A stretch of DNA of 39,794 nt from Proteobacteria bacterium CG1_02_64_396 (lineage in GTDB: Bacteria > Pseudomonadota > MNWR01 > CG1-02-64-396). Where the stretch lies: positions 42,474 to 82,267 of the forward strand of contig MNWR01000105.1 in assembly GCA_001872725.1 (NCBI GenBank). The letters run 5' to 3'. A program made the translations under genes and the position numbers. Positions 10,987 through 39,338 of the stretch are shown in pieces. Every line of letters begins with the position of its first letter. Position 1 is the first letter of the stretch. The notes under the pieces were generated by a model. That model did not search any database and had not been told where the DNA came from. It worked only from the letters and a program-made list of their open reading frames with translations.

Positions 10987-11020
10987 AATATTCATGGTCC
11001 CCGGCTGCAAGAAGAACGTT

Positions 11021-11228
11021 GGGGAAACGCTGATTCAAGGCCTCCTGCCTTGAATCAGCACGCCTGGCAAAAACCAAAAGTAGGTGCCCTGAGGCGGCGA
11101 TGGTTTTTGCTTTGCTTTCAAAATCAGCAGAGCTTCAGCGACTTAGGTCGCCTTCTACATACGTTCCTGATTTTGGCTGCCCATCCGTGGGCCGCTCGGA
11201 AGCGCGAATCAATCAGCGCCTCCTTAGG
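11021..11228 (+). repeat. Hairpin-rich intergenic repeat, copy A
   Basis: About 208 bases made of successive stem-loops. The first is a perfect 12-bp stem CTGATTCAAGGC/GCCTTGAATCAG (11030-11058, loop CTCCT). Then come a weak stem around TGCCCTGAGGCG, GCGAC-TTAG-GTCGC (11138-11151), GCCCA-TCCG-TGGGC (about 11179-11193) and GGAAGCGC/GCGCCTCC (11198-11223). It matches copy B in inverted orientation with roughly nine of ten bases identical. It lies just upstream of the merR gene. Sequences between the stems are conserved too (for example CGTTCCTGATTTTGGC). Confidence 0.85.
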
Positions 11229-11270
11229 GGATCCGCAACCGCCGGCTCGGGCCGCTTCAGGAGGTTCGCC

Positions 11271-11726
11271 ATGAACGACAACCAGCATGACGAAGAACCA
11301 CAACCGGGGTTCTTCAAGATCGGGGTGGTGGCCGAAAGCCTGGGGATTTCGCTGCGCACCATCCATATGTACGAACGCGAGGGGTTGCTGCTCGCCGCCC
11401 GGACCCCCGGCGGCACGCGGCTGTTCACCGAGGACGACATCGCCTGGATCGCCACCATCCGCGACCTGATTCAATCGGGGGTGGGGATCGAGGGAATCCG
11501 CCGTTTGCTGGCGCTCATCCCCTGTTGGGAGCTCAAACCCTGCTCCCCCGAGCAGCGGCTGGCCTGCCCCTTGGTGCGCGAGGGTGTCTACCCCTGCTGG
11601 TCGAACCGCGAGCGGATGTGCACCGAAACGGTGGCCGAATGCCGCAATTGCCGGGTCTACACCGCCCGCTTTGACGCCACCAATCTAAAAGGGCGGTTTC
11701 GCATCAATCTGAATCCGAACGACTGA
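11271..11726 (+). CDS. MerR family regulator with a seven-cysteine C-terminal domain
   Basis: A 151-residue protein. Residues 14-80 form a MerR-type winged helix (FKIGVVAESLGISLRTIHMY, EREGLL, TPGGTRLFTEDDI). After the linker come seven cysteines in 43 residues: C85, C91, C99, C109, C117, C124 and C127, with PCW seen twice. This could bind an iron-sulfur cluster or zinc, making it a redox or metal sensor; family members twist promoters with long spacers to activate genes. CAGGAGG at 11259-11265 supports the ATG at 11271, and the longer ORF reads through repeat A. It is divergent from the two-polyferredoxin cluster, its most likely target. It is bounded on both sides by inverted repeat copies. 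Confidence 0.85.
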   Translation: MNDNQHDEEPQPGFFKIGVVAESLGISLRTIHMYEREGLLLAARTPGGTRLFTEDDIAWIATIRDLIQSGVGIEGIRRLLALIPCWELKPCSPEQRLACPLVREGVYPCWSNRERMCTETVAECRNCRVYTARFDATNLKGRFRINLNPND

Positions 11727-11743
11727 TCCCCAAAAAAGAGGCG

Positions 11744-11763
11744 GGACGGTTCTGCTGCCGTCC
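11744..11763 (+). terminator. Weak hairpin after merR
   Basis: GGACGG (11744-11749) pairs with CCGTCC (11758-11763) eighteen bases after the merR stop. No T-run follows, so termination here is uncertain. Confidence 0.3.
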
Positions 11764-11808
11764 TGTTGACCCCCCCCTATCCCTCGGTTGTTCCTCCGCG
11801 TCGTCACC

Positions 11809-12016
11809 TCAAGGGAAGCGCCGATTGATTCGCGCTTCCGAGCGGCCCACGGATGGGCCGCCAAAATCAGGAACGTAAGTAGGAGGCGACCTAAGTCGCC
11901 GAAGCTCTGCCGATTTTGCAAGCAAAGCAAAAAACACGTCGCCTCAAGGCGCCTACTTCTGGTTTTTGCGAAGCGTGCTGAAAAAAGGCAGGAGGCCTTG
12001 AATCAACGTTTCTTTA
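11809..12016 (-). repeat. Hairpin-rich intergenic repeat, copy B (inverted relative to copy A)
   Basis: Read on the minus strand it runs parallel to copy A: AAACGTTGATTCAAGGCC at its start, CGCCTTGAGGCG, GGCGAC-TTAG-GTCGCC, GGCCCATCCGTGGGCC, and GGAAGCGC...GGCGCTTCC at the end. Stems 2 and 3 are longer than in copy A, while the first stem is partly disrupted. Its left edge TTAA gives the TAA stop codon of comEC (12014-12016). Together, copies A and B form an inverted repeat around merR. Confidence 0.85.
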
Positions 12017-14353
12017 AGGCGAGCTTTCAGATCGCGCCCAAGGCACCGCCCAGCGCCAAAGGGTGAGCGCCTCCGGCGCCGTATCGCGCGCCTGCCGCAC
12101 CCCCCCCTGACTCACCGCGATGGCGCCACCGTCGGCGGTGTTCCACACCCGCCCCCCCAACGCCAGGTAACGCGCCACCACCTCGGGGGCCGGGAACCCG
12201 TAACGGTTGAGGTATCCCGCGCTGACCAGCACCCGACGGGGCGCGACCGCCGCCACCATGGCGGGGGTCGAGGAGGTGCGCGAGCCGTGGTGGGGCATGA
12301 GCATCCCCTCGGCGCGGGGCCAGTCGATCTGCCCCTCTTGCCGCCGCTCCAGGTCGCCCGGCAAAAGCCAGCGCCCCAGGGGGAAATCCACCGCCAGTAC
12401 CAAGCTGTTGCCGTTGCCGCTACCGCCCCCCTCGGCGGGGGGCCAAAGCACCTGCACAGCCAAAACCCCTGCCCGCCGATCCATTCCCCGGTGCAAGGTG
12501 ACGATCTCGACCCCCTGCCGCTGTGCCTGGCGCTGCAAGGCGCGCCAAAACCCAGGGGGATCCTCGCCGAGCGACGGCGGCGCCCAGATCTGCCCCACCG
12601 GCATGGCGCTCAGCACCCCCGCCGCCGCCCCGCCGTGATCCTGTTGCCGGTGGGAGACCACCAGTGCATCGAGCCGAGTCACCCCCAAGGCGCGTAAGGC
12701 GGGGGCAATGGCGTCGAAACCGGGGTCGAACCGGGGCGACGAGCGTCCCCCGGCGTCGATCAACCAAGCGTGGCCGTCCCCCCCCCGGATGACAACCGCC
12801 TGCGCCTGCCCCACATCGAGGGCGACCAGCAGCGGCGCATCGGCCGGTTGGGGGGGCAGGTTGGGCAGCGCCATCGCCAAGGCGGCCAACGCCACCCCCA
12901 AGCCGCCCCCCCGCCACGCTCCGCTACGCCCTCGCAGCGCCAGCCCCACACCGATCAGCCCCAAAAGGCTTGCCCCCAACACCGCCGGAATGGCGGGGTA
13001 CCAAGGGGGAAGCCACGCCAAACCCCAGGCCAGCCCCCGCTCCAGCAGGTCGATGACGTAGTCGAGCCCGGCCAAAATCGCGGCGGCGGGGGTGGTCAGC
13101 CCCAATGCCCACAACACCGCTACCGCCAGCACCCCCGGCACCAAAACGAAGGTGGTTAAGGGGATCGCCACCGCGTTGGCGGGGAGGCTTAAGCTGGGAA
13201 TTTGCCCGAAAAACCAAATGCCCCAAGGGGCGGTGGCCAGCGAGGCGACCCCGGTGGCCAGCACCATGGCGGCGGCGGGGCGTATGAACTGGGGGAGGCG
13301 TTGCAAGGCAGAGGTCATGAGGGGCAGCGCCGCCAGCAGGGCGCCGACTGCCGAAAACGAAAGCCAAAAACCGGGACCGAGCAGATCGGCGGGGTCGGCC
13401 AGCGCCAGCCACGCCGCCGCCCAAGCCAGGGCCAAACCGGGCGAATGGCGACGGTCGAACAGCCAGCCGGCCATGAGGAAGGCGGCCATCACCACCGCCC
13501 GGATGGTGGGGACCGACCACCCGGCCAGCGCCCCGAAGGCGATCCCAGCCAGCAGTCCCGCCCCCGCAGCCCAGGCCTCAATGCGGTGGCGCTGACACCA
13601 CCAAGGGGCAAGTCGCGGCAGCCCCCGCCCCACCACCCAGAAGACTCCACCAATCACCAGCCCCACATGCAGACCCGAAATCGCCAGCAGATGGGCGACC
13701 CCGCTTTGTTGCCACAGCTGCCGCTCGCTGCGCCCCAATCCCCCCCGCTCCCCCAAACCCAGGGCGGTGAGAATGGCGGGGTGGTGGGGGTTTTGGGCCC
13801 AGATCCAGCGTTGCAGGCCGCCCCGAAACGAGGTGGGGGCGGCGCTCCAGTCCACCGCCTTGACGTAACCGGTGGCGCCGATTCCCTCGCGGGTCAAGTA
13901 GTCTTCAAAACTCGACACCCCGAAGTTGCGGCTGCTATGGGGGGGGAAGAGCCGTAGGGTCGCCTGAGCCTGGGTGCCGATCACCCAATCGTCGGGGGTC
14001 CGGGTTAGGCGCAGCAGCCAGGGCTGGCCGTCGATGCTGGCGTGGGCAATCACTCCCCCCCCGCCCCCCTGCTCGACGCTCAAGGTTGCGGTGACGGTCG
14101 CCGGAGCGGGCCACGGGTCGGGGGGCGCACTGCGCACCTGCCCCCACAAGCAGCCCAGCCCGACAGCCAACGCCACCCCCAAAGCGGCCAAACGGTGCGG
14201 TGAAGGGCGCAGCAGGGCGGCGCCGGAGGCCAGTCCCATTGCAGCCGCAGCCCAGCCAACCATCCCCGCCGCTCCAGCAGTCACCCCCATCACCCAGCTC
14301 CACAACATCCAGGGCAACCAGGGTGAGGTACCGCGGACTCGATCCGCCTCCAT
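12014..14353 (-). CDS. comEC: ComEC/Rec2 family DNA-uptake channel protein
   Basis: A 779-residue protein with N-terminal helices, an OB-like periplasmic domain (about 75-200), the competence core with SGVAHLLAISGLHVGLV near residue 220 and many membrane helices to about 490, and a C-terminal metallo-beta-lactamase-like domain (DVGQAQAVVIRGG, LIDAGGRSS, VVSHRQQDHGG, MLMPHHGSRTSST). ComEC forms the inner-membrane channel for single-stranded DNA in transformation. In the metal motif the expected Asp of HxDxDH is Gln (HRQQDH), so nuclease activity of this domain is doubtful. AAGGAG seven bases before the ATG supports the start. The stop codon lies at the edge of repeat copy B. No other competence genes are in the window. 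Confidence 0.9.
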   Translation of the reverse strand: MEADRVRGTSPWLPWMLWSWVMGVTAGAAGMVGWAAAAMGLASGAALLRPSPHRLAALGVALAVGLGCLWGQVRSAPPDPWPAPATVTATLSVEQGGGGGVIAHASIDGQPWLLRLTRTPDDWVIGTQAQATLRLFPPHSSRNFGVSSFEDYLTREGIGATGYVKAVDWSAAPTSFRGGLQRWIWAQNPHHPAILTALGLGERGGLGRSERQLWQQSGVAHLLAISGLHVGLVIGGVFWVVGRGLPRLAPWWCQRHRIEAWAAGAGLLAGIAFGALAGWSVPTIRAVVMAAFLMAGWLFDRRHSPGLALAWAAAWLALADPADLLGPGFWLSFSAVGALLAALPLMTSALQRLPQFIRPAAAMVLATGVASLATAPWGIWFFGQIPSLSLPANAVAIPLTTFVLVPGVLAVAVLWALGLTTPAAAILAGLDYVIDLLERGLAWGLAWLPPWYPAIPAVLGASLLGLIGVGLALRGRSGAWRGGGLGVALAALAMALPNLPPQPADAPLLVALDVGQAQAVVIRGGDGHAWLIDAGGRSSPRFDPGFDAIAPALRALGVTRLDALVVSHRQQDHGGAAAGVLSAMPVGQIWAPPSLGEDPPGFWRALQRQAQRQGVEIVTLHRGMDRRAGVLAVQVLWPPAEGGGSGNGNSLVLAVDFPLGRWLLPGDLERRQEGQIDWPRAEGMLMPHHGSRTSSTPAMVAAVAPRRVLVSAGYLNRYGFPAPEVVARYLALGGRVWNTADGGAIAVSQGGVRQARDTAPEALTLWRWAVPWARSESSP

Positions 14354-14397
14354 GCGGCGCTCCTTGGGGTCTAGAAAGACAGGATCACATGCGGCTC

Positions 14398-14556
14398 ACG
14401 CAAAGCCGCTAAGAAAACGCTGAATAAAGGCCTCCTGCCTTCTTCGGCAGGGCTTCGGCGACTTAGGTCGCCTCCTACGACGGCGCTATTTTGGCGGCCC
14501 CTCCCTGGGGCGCTCGGAAGCGCCATTCAATCAGCGCCTCCTTAGCGGCTTTGCGT
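14398..14556 (+). repeat. Hairpin-rich intergenic repeat, copy C, with long terminal inverted repeats
   Basis: Perfect 16-bp arms ACGCAAAGCCGCTAAG (14398-14413) and CTTAGCGGCTTTGCGT (14541-14556) enclose a shortened copy of the repeat. With a small mismatch the arms extend to 26 bases (from CATGCGG at 14388). The interior keeps AAGGC-CTCCT-GCCTT, GGCGAC-TTAG-GTCGCC, a GCCCC/GGGGC stem in place of GCCCA/TGGGC, and the final CAGCGCCTCC. The segment between the first and third stems of copy A is missing. It lies between the deacetylase and comEC genes, both on the minus strand, and could act as a terminator or RNA-stability element. Confidence 0.85.
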
Positions 14557-14621
14557 CGACCGCATGGATGCGGGAGGTAGAGCCGCAGGGCAATTTCCGA
14601 GAACCGCCTTTGCCGTCGGTC

Positions 14622-36165: not shown

Positions 36166-36199
36166 TTAGGGAAGCGCGAATCAATCAGCGCTTCCTTAG
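36166..36199. repeat. Minimal copy E of the hairpin-rich repeat (terminal hairpin only)
   Basis: TTAGGGAAGCGC-GAATCAATCA-GCGCTTCCTTAG is a stand-alone version of the last stem-loop of copies A and B, with the loop GAATCAATCA identical to copy A. The stem is perfect over GGAAGCGC/GCGCTTCC except for one extra G in the left flank. Its right edge contains the TAA stop codon of the porin-like gene (36196-36198). Confidence 0.75.
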
Positions 36200-37673: not shown

Positions 37674-39128
37674 CTACGAGGCGGGTTGGGTCACCGTGTT
37701 CGAGTCCAGCGTAACCGCAGTCTGCGCCAACAGCCTGCCATTAACAGTTGCGCCCGTATTGACGGTAATACCTTTTTCAGCAAGCACTATGCCCTCCAGG
37801 TGGGCCGTCGTACCAATGGCGACACCGGTGCCGCCACCGACCTGCCAGAAGATGTTCTTGGGAACTGCACCACCGGTTAAGAAGACACTCGTGCCGTTGG
37901 CCTGGGTAAGATCGCCTGCTATCTGGAATACCCAGACATCATTTGGACCACCCGAGAGGGTGACATTTGTATTGATCGAAACGCCCGTACCCCATTTGTA
38001 AAGACCGGGGGCCAGTGTTCGGCCGCTGATGTCGCCCGCGTAGAGTTCAGTGAAATCGGGCGTTGTTCTGCCCGCTGCATCGGTATAGGCGGTTCCCATA
38101 TCGAGCACCGCATTGGCGACCAGCGTATTGTCCGCTGAAGCACCAGCAAAGCAGGTAACAGCGCCGCTGCCGGTATAGCCAGCATCCGCGCCGAAGATGG
38201 TGCCTGTTATTTCTGAGCAGAAAACATTATCCATCGCCGCAGCGGTAATTGGGCTGGAGCCAATGTTGCCGGTGATGGCCGAGGTATGAACATTGGTGAT
38301 GCCCGTTTTTGTCAGGACGACAAAATCTCCCGCTGTCCTAAGGTTGACTACGGCAGGTCCGGCAGCAACGGAGGTTCCGGTCGTAAAGGTCCACACCTTG
38401 TCGACCGCAAGTGGATTTGCAGCAAGATCGGTTATTCCCGTGGTCAGCGTGGCGGTATAGAGGGTGTTGGCAGCAAAATTACTGGTTGGGTTAAAGGCCA
38501 CTGCCTTGCCGCTGTAGCTGACGGTGCCTGAAACTGGGGGGCCGCCAGCGCTCACCGTGAACGCCGATGTGTTCACGGTCGCGGGGTCGAGTGCTTCGCT
38601 AAAGTTGGCCATTACGTTGCGATTAAGTGCAAAGCCGGTGGCCACGTTAGCAGGGTAGGTAGAGCTTACTGTTGGAGCAACGGTGTCTGCTGTCGTGCCG
38701 GTGGTAAAGCTCCAGGTCGAGCTGGCCGCCAGTTCGGTGCCTGCTGAGCTTTTCACCAAACGAGCAAGCAAGACGGTGTAGAGGGTGCCGGCTGTGAGGT
38801 TGCTGCTAGGGGTAAAACTTGCGGCGTTGGATGCGGCATCATAGCTCACGGTGCCGCTGAGCACGGACCCGGCCGGGTTGCTCACCCCAAAGCTCGCAGT
38901 GTCAAAGGTTGTGGCATCCATCGCTTCACTGAAGATGGCCACTACCTTGCTATTGAGCGCCACAGCCGTGTCGTTGCTCGCCGGCATGGTCTCGATCACG
39001 GTGGGTGCAGCGCCACTGCCACTGCCGCCACTGCCGCCGCCACAACCTGCCACAACGGTGGCAAGCAGGAATGCGGCGAGCCAAAAACTTAGGCCCGTGT
39101 GTTTGTTCATCGTCTTCATCGTCTTCAT
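37674..39128 (-). CDS. Lipoprotein with two Ig-like domains and an ice-binding-like (DUF3494) domain
   Basis: A 484-residue protein. A lipoprotein signal (SFWLAAFLLATVVAGC) leads to a Gly/Ser linker, then two Big_5-type Ig-like domains (about 40-145 and 147-250), each starting near APTV..T.PA and containing a N-x-x-V-x-A-x-FSEA-MD or -LD motif and ending TWSFTTGT / VWTFTTGT. The rest (about 255-484) matches DUF3494: VNLRTAGDFVVLTKTGITN, ITGNIGSSP, LAPGLYKWGTGVSINTNVTL, VWVFQIAGDLTQANG, KNIFWQVGGG and LEGIVLAEKGITVNTGATVNGRLLAQTAVTLDS. Such domains serve ice binding or surface adhesion. TTAGGAG fixes the start at 39128, the first of three ATG in a repeated ATGAAGACG unit. The gene is visibly less GC-rich than its neighbours, which suggests recent transfer. 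Confidence 0.87.
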   Translation of the reverse strand: MKTMKTMNKHTGLSFWLAAFLLATVVAGCGGGSGGSGSGAAPTVIETMPASNDTAVALNSKVVAIFSEAMDATTFDTASFGVSNPAGSVLSGTVSYDAASNAASFTPSSNLTAGTLYTVLLARLVKSSAGTELAASSTWSFTTGTTADTVAPTVSSTYPANVATGFALNRNVMANFSEALDPATVNTSAFTVSAGGPPVSGTVSYSGKAVAFNPTSNFAANTLYTATLTTGITDLAANPLAVDKVWTFTTGTSVAAGPAVVNLRTAGDFVVLTKTGITNVHTSAITGNIGSSPITAAAMDNVFCSEITGTIFGADAGYTGSGAVTCFAGASADNTLVANAVLDMGTAYTDAAGRTTPDFTELYAGDISGRTLAPGLYKWGTGVSINTNVTLSGGPNDVWVFQIAGDLTQANGTSVFLTGGAVPKNIFWQVGGGTGVAIGTTAHLEGIVLAEKGITVNTGATVNGRLLAQTAVTLDSNTVTQPAS

Positions 39129-39338
39129 CGTGTCACTCCTAACGAAATTATGGATAACACTGGTTCCTGATGAGTACCTGCATCTCAACACCAAGCCTTT
39201 TGGGTTTTGGCAAGATCCGTATGGGGGCAACAGGGATAAAACCACAGCGAATCCTGCCGCCATGAACGTGGCAGGATTTTCAGTCTTGATAGAGTGGCAT
39301 AATTGTTGAATGGGGATACATACTGAGGGGGATGAATG
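39129..39338. other. Leader region of the ice-binding-like gene
   Basis: No gene seen. AATCCTGCC (39250-39258) and GGCAGGATT (39270-39278) form a perfect 9-bp stem about 120 bases upstream of the start codon, possibly an operator or leader hairpin. The region is AT-richer than most of the window. Confidence 0.35.

Follow-up and report, generated by a model that had tools for sequence, protein, structure and literature searches.

The stretch of DNA analyzed here (the window; 39,794 nucleotides of contig MNWR01000105.1 from Proteobacteria bacterium CG1_02_64_396) carries four copies, named A, B, C, and E, of a hairpin-rich repeat that recurs throughout the genome from which it was taken (the window genome). 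The original prediction, made from the letters alone, had described these copies as a family of conserved stem-loops; all four were found at the places given there, and their exact bounds have been refined. Our results indicate that the repeat is a miniature inverted-repeat transposable element (MITE) of the IS5 group, and we consider it fairly probable that its hairpin core is in addition a structured RNA, read from the bottom strand, that binds CsrA.

Copy A (element at 11023-11223, 201 bp; 11019..11227 with flanks; + strand) is full length and consists of the core plus two repetitive extragenic palindromes (REPs); TTGG and TTAG occupy the positions of the target duplication on its two sides. 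Five hairpins follow one another along it. H1, the left terminal hairpin (11029..11059, +), has the bottom-strand loop C-AGGAG-G (11042-11046). H2 (11067..11110, +) has the arms GCAAAAACC/GGTTTTTGC and a GTAG-type palindrome in its loop at about 11080-11096, and H3 (11120..11174, +) has the arms AAAATCAG/CTGATTTT. H4 (11176..11195, -) presents on the bottom strand the hexaloop C-ACGGAT-G (11183-11188), which fits the Csr/Rsm consensus ANGGAX, and H5, the right terminal hairpin (11198..11223, +), holds the right inverted repeat. Within the loop of H3 lies a GTAG-type REP (11137..11158, -) with the stem (A/G)GCGAC-TTAG-GTCGCC and the bottom-strand tag GTAGAAG, which is missing from 149-bp copies that consist of the core. 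The stems named in the original prediction are thus present, but the GGCGAC-TTAG-GTCGCC hairpin is recast here as a nested REP outside the ancestral element.

Copy B (element at 11814-12013, 200 bp; 11810..12017 with flanks CAAG and TTAA) is about 90% alike to copy A and lies inverted, on the - strand, an orientation that the original prediction had left unstated; its loops therefore appear on the window's + strand, with ACGGAT at 11849-11854 for H4 and AGGAG at 11990-11994 for H1, and a nested GTAG-REP, GTAGGAGGCGACCTAAGTCGCCGAA, lies at 11879..11903 (+). Copy C (element at 14413-14541, 129 bp; 14409..14545 with flanks CTAA and TTAG; +) is internally deleted: H2 is missing, and H4 remains together with a nested REP whose tag is at 14478. 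As had been noticed, the fourth stem differs on both sides between copies A/B and copy C, from GCCCA/TGGGC to GCCCC/GGGGC. Copy C sits midway in an older 41-bp palindrome (arms 14388-14428 and 14526-14566, 80% complementary), and because it occupies that center, palindrome centers with CTAA/CTAG may be favored targets. Copy E (element at 36170-36195, 26 bp; 36166..36199 with flanks; +) is H5 alone, GGAAGCGCGAATCAATCAGCGCTTCC, bracketed by perfect TTAG/TTAG duplications. Elsewhere in the window, the product of the gene at 37674-39263 (-) is predicted to be ice-binding-like and has Ig-like domains of the Big_5 type.

A BLAST search with copy A gave at least 47 matches (77 to 92% identity; 40 of 188 candidates scored) in the 2.94-Mb draft genome, where 140 exact occurrences of the terminal motif GGRARCGCTGATT were counted and none of the reversed control, far beyond what chance would give. 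The consensus folds with a z score of -8.1. Copies fall into size classes of about 199, 172, 149, 128, 43, and 26 to 27 bp, the 149-bp form being the core; ancestrally, the unit comprised five hairpins in a row (H1 to H5; about 150 bp), and the longer forms are this core with a GTAG-tagged palindrome gained in one or both of the H2 and H3 loops.

Mobility of the element

Alignment of the copies with their flanks in the window genome showed that the element ends in inverted repeats, GGAARCGCTGATT, and is flanked by a target duplication of 4 bp with the consensus YTAR, mostly CTAA, TTAG, TTAA, or CTAG. Identical flanking 4-mers were present in 39 of the 76 resolved copies, compared with a mean of 11.9 and a maximum of 23 in 10,000 shuffles of the flanks. 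Merely conserved flanking sequence is excluded as the source of this identity, since identical pairs also occur off consensus (CTTT/CTTT, CAAA/CAAA, TTCA/TTCA, and TTAT/TTAT). The copies, 26 to 202 bp long, are noncoding and too short to encode a transposase, and their inverted repeats pair up at fixed size classes. In Mariprofundus the corresponding inverted repeats are GGAGATGCTGATT/GGAAGCGCTGATT, and a metagenome-assembled genome (MAG) of that genus contains an intact insertion sequence (IS) of about 1.16 kb (locus L191), which runs from GGAGATGCTGATT to GATCAGCGCTTTC between TTAG and TTAA. Its 316-amino-acid transposase matched the NCBIfam IS5 model NF033581 (E = 1e-96) together with PF01609 and PF05598. 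In genome G091, a transposase 76% identical to that of L191 accompanies an IS end of GATCAGCGGTTCC followed by CTAG, and more distant IS5 relatives (L222, L224, L225, L241, and L242) share the YTAR duplication and the GGA...CTG pattern of the ends.

That the repeat is a nonautonomous, IS5-type MITE is in our view nearly certain: a DDE transposase supplied in trans would recognize the terminal inverted repeats and insert the element at YTAR sites, duplicating 4 bp. It resembles other IS5-group MITEs in being short, in having no open reading frame, in its GGA... inverted repeats and 4-bp YTAR duplication, and in that an autonomous IS with matching ends is known in a relative of the window genome. 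It differs from them in that its core is not a deleted IS, the match to the IS being confined to approximately the terminal 17 bp, and in that the five-hairpin core is kept across a bacterial class while the inverted repeats vary by lineage. The original prediction had correctly seen an element that spreads and that loses or gains modules; the route, with inverted repeats and 4-bp duplications, had escaped it.

IS5 fragments present in the window genome itself were weighed as a possible driver and dismissed on the ground that they have different ends (AGTCTGTCGGACTTG). They belong to an IS5-type element broken at contig ends (L031:1-800 and L032:1200-1621, on contigs C102 and C23), and short MITE-like relatives of this AGTCTGTCGGACTTG-ended element, beginning CTAGGAGTCTGTCGGACTTG, lie in the flanks of L016 and L019. 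Two further kinds of small element were noted. H1-only palindromes of 42 to 43 bp (G000:C43:23388-23430 and C16:10544-10585) have a complete inverted repeat at each end, are flanked by CTAA/CTAA or TTAG/TTAG, and resemble transposed or completed single-hairpin elements. A second MITE family of 118 to 120 bp (G000:C60:8296-8413, C10:16611-16729, and C40:1679-1798) adjoins YTAR sites and has the inverted repeats of the main family around a different interior (GGCAAAACTCC..CATTGAAGCGCC ... CTCACGGG..GCGTTCGGG).

A different kind of mobility, in which BIME-like repeats are spread by Y1 (HUH) transposases, as in systems of REPs and their RAYT transposases, was also weighed. GTAG-tagged REPs form a named superfamily (PMC3733652), and the inner hairpins of H2 and H3 in copies A and B belong to it, although the original prediction had recognized no named REP, BIME, or ERIC family. 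Free-standing GTAG-REPs are abundant in the window genome, which also has four Y1 transposase (Y1_Tnp) genes, two of them among REPs of near-identical design. The REPs are, however, nested guests and not the element itself. The 149-bp core occurs without them, relatives that lack these REPs possess the core, and the core has inverted repeats and 4-bp duplications, which RAYT elements do not make; only the nested hairpins, and not the whole unit, can be described as tagged palindromes that a Y1 transposase mobilizes. For the core, which we regard as exceedingly unlikely to have arisen this way, the explanation is refuted; for the nested hairpins alone it holds. In Mariprofundus erugo, different hairpins are found at two fixed sites in the core, namely the apical loop of H2 and the junction between H3 and H4: at L105, L109, L119, L121, and L128, these are unrelated hairpins of about 67 to 69 bp. 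At L244:770-3063, a Y1 (RAYT) gene lies beside a long, regular array of bacterial interspersed mosaic elements in which GTAGGAGGCCACCCCGTGGCCGAAC alternates with GTAGGAGCGGACCCCGTCCGCGAAC at a spacing of about 100 bp.

Conservation of the hairpin core

A consensus search and a pattern scan over named genomes located the core in Mariprofundus erugo, in two Mariprofundus MAGs, in Zetaproteobacteria CG1_02_53_45, and in the methane-oxidizing endosymbiont of Gigantopelta aegis. The last, a gammaproteobacterium, has about 150 matches to the transposase family PF01609, and its element was probably acquired by recent horizontal transfer; the single copy (L148:271-420) is almost identical to the form in the zetaproteobacterium G004. 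A match in Oceanicaulis (L155) had no element surrounding it and was set aside as chance. A pattern for H5 gave no matches in viral contigs, and a pattern for the full H3-H4 region, which was too strict, gave none in genome contigs.

Thirty-nine cores from these genomes and their relatives were readily aligned, and their pairing was scored on a hairpin structure fixed beforehand; RNAalifold on alignment A1 had returned a long-range consensus with few covarying pairs, and the structure of local hairpins was used instead. In the 39-core alignment, 92.7% of cells were paired, compared with 83.0% after shuffling and 33 to 49% with the partners slid, and the covariation score was 0.255 against 0.088. 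Twenty of the 47 pairs had changed on both sides, with 172 double-changed cells against 64 in shuffles, which bears out the earlier claim that the stems are kept through compensatory change. With a covariance model built from this alignment, 41 of 78 Zetaproteobacteria proved to carry the element, the highest number of copies scored in one genome being 39. Across the phylum it was detected in 47 of 399 genomes, some of them from families that lie beyond the Zetaproteobacteria (f2, f19, f44, f45, and f50). Neither of the outcomes that would have refuted the original prediction, few copies or substitutions that break the pairing, was seen. Stem sequences have almost nothing in common in the most distant families, where the order H1 to H5 is nevertheless retained. 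These results strongly support a deep conservation of the hairpin core. Because the inverted repeats differ between lineages, it appears as if the core had been teamed with different transposases in different lineages. Searches of Rfam gave no credible match, including to CsrB, RsmX, RsmY, and RsmZ.

Strand of the constraint and CsrA-like loops

An RNA kept on one strand tolerates G.U pairs there, and the opposite strand then shows A.C. Counted once per genome, with the top strand being that on which the original prediction had read copies A and C, the top strand showed 118 A.C and 72 G.U cells (P = 0.001), or 26 versus 11 genomes. Of 43 genomes, 34 had the more stable fold on the bottom strand (P = 3e-5), a number that did not change when the loops were masked (P = 1.5e-4). 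GNRA tetraloops numbered 28 on the bottom strand and none on the top; those outside H4 were mostly GTAA, GCAA, or GTGA in H3 and H5. Together these comparisons suggest that the core is probably constrained as a bottom-strand RNA. The interpretation given in the original prediction is supported in part: the RNA-like signal lies on the strand opposite to the one that had been read, and the window genome alone shows no such bias.

Two of the five hairpins carry loops of a recognizable kind on this strand. In H4, the loop follows C-ANGGAX-G; across 70 8-nucleotide loops, the counts were C64 A67 N G63 G62 A64 X G66, with the N and X positions variable and A, G, G, and A fixed. H1 has the same hexaloop or a shorter AGGAX, that is, C-A(N)GGAX-G. 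GGA was found in the bottom-strand loop of H1 in 55 of 71 cases and of H4 in 56 of 71, whereas H2, H3, and H5 had at most 2 on either strand. As defined by Duss et al. 2014 (PMC4005645), the high-affinity Csr/Rsm site is an ANGGAX hexaloop directly on a C-G-closed stem, the N-less pentaloop variant being a weaker site; in copies A and B, the H4 loop agrees in every letter with the hcnA site, ACGGAU. With H1 and H4, the bottom strand thus has the two or more A(N)GGAX loops on C-G-closed stems that characterize Csr/Rsm RNAs. Within the window genome, 24 of 31 near-full-length copies retain both GGA sites, and GGA positions are off consensus in 6.5% of cases, compared with 12.6% at other internal positions (P = 0.012). 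The H1 loops of the first alignment were not selected for, since the cores had been collected via their right end only.

The hosts of the element almost always encode CsrA. Of 399 sampled genomes, 219 have csrA: 45 of the 47 element-bearing genomes and 174 of the remaining 352. The two element-bearing genomes without csrA are 69 to 74% complete, and other members of their genus have the gene. Among the Zetaproteobacteria, the element was found in 12 of 14 csrA-positive genera and in none of 4 csrA-negative genera (P = 0.005). Judged from loop consensus and host distribution, an RNA of the element would, on balance, be expected to bind CsrA.

Discussion

We favor the view that a mobile IS5-group MITE carries a core of about 150 bp whose bottom strand is preserved as a folded RNA, H4 and H1 being its two stem-loops of the Csr/Rsm type. 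Such an RNA, if transcribed, most likely by read-through, would bind a CsrA dimer; in the window genome, two GTAG-type REPs have additionally inserted into the loops of H2 and H3. A further step, which we put forward only tentatively, is that the element acts as a mobile CsrA-sequestering RNA, tens of copies of which titrate CsrA or tie the success of the element to the host Csr system, with the core being reequipped with different IS ends by lineage.

Several observations weigh against this view. A transposase of the L191 type was looked for in the window genome and not found, so that the copies there are orphans, or else the gene has been lost or is unassembled. Ten of the 28 GNRA loops are GGGA and belong to the H4 motif itself. 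Mismatches in the window genome alone have no strand bias (about 54 G.U and 46 A.C), and the first set of 39 cores showed no polarity (36 A.C and 29 G.U), which emerged only once 43 genomes were compared. Ascertainment is the main weakness: the loops in question were part of the training set of the covariance model, and divergent matches are thus biased towards GGA loops, a bias against which stands the detection of the f19 genomes despite their partial loss of the GGA motif. Related genomes are not independent, and streamlining could explain part of the co-occurrence of csrA and the element, since both csrA and mobile elements can be lost from small genomes. With respect to flanking genes, neither orientation of the copies is preferred (31 of 58, in two data sets), and around the one core examined there was no promoter-like or terminator-like site and no U-tract terminator.

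Some of these points would suit an ordinary IS5-derived MITE whose palindromes act as DNA only, in transposase binding, cruciforms, or template-switch correction, the GGA loops being inherited without any RNA function. The MITE anatomy is firm, the inverted repeats lie within H1 and H5, and neither gene orientation nor, inside the window genome, mismatches show a bias. DNA processes are, however, strand symmetric, yet the bottom strand is favored across lineages in G.U pairs, stability, and GNRA loops; the stems have been rewritten while two loops hold constant exactly their A, G, G, and A positions and vary at N and X; and H2 to H4, which are not transposase ends, persist in families whose inverted repeats differ. 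We therefore regard a DNA-only element as rather doubtful. Because the window genome alone lacks a strand bias, the RNA signal comes from the comparison of lineages, which fits a near-neutral decay of single copies once they have inserted, while selection would determine which elements continue to spread.

The intergenic position of the copies, their strong folding, and their number would also be expected of an RNA module selected beside genes to act in cis, as a terminator, a stabilizer of mRNA, or an RNase III site, in the manner of BOX, ERIC, or Nemis. The lack of orientation bias does not support a cis-regulatory role: the bottom strand is in gene sense in 23 of 36 cases in the window genome, a proportion reversed in Mariprofundus (8 of 22). 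The arrangement of neighboring genes is close to background, and with no U-tract terminator at the core examined, such a role seems improbable. BOX, ERIC/IRU, Correia/Nemis, and RUP are likewise intergenic, modular, hairpin-forming, nonautonomous repeats; their sequences are not known to be related to the present element, and none of them is known to have paired CsrA-type loops.

Closer to the MITE with an RNA core that we favor are the Csr/Rsm antagonist small RNAs (CsrB and RsmX/Y/Z), which share with it several C-A(N)GGAX-G hairpins, paired sites, and hosts that encode CsrA. The element differs from them in being mobile, in its tens of copies, in having only two such loops, and in having no Rfam match; no promoter or terminator was seen at the one core tested, and its binding of CsrA is a prediction. 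In the literature searched, we could not find a description of such repeats linked to CsrA or of a MITE combined with an RNA bearing CsrA-like loops.

Bacterial MITEs are commonly regarded as short-lived debris of local insertion sequences. In the present family, a five-hairpin fold persists across the Zetaproteobacteria and several other Pseudomonadota despite rewritten sequence, with the constraint pointing to one strand and to two loops of CsrA type, and the old question of why some bacterial palindromic repeats conserve structure becomes testable. If our interpretation is correct, a transposable element would interface with a global RNA-binding regulator, and there would be reason to reexamine other hairpin repeats strand by strand.

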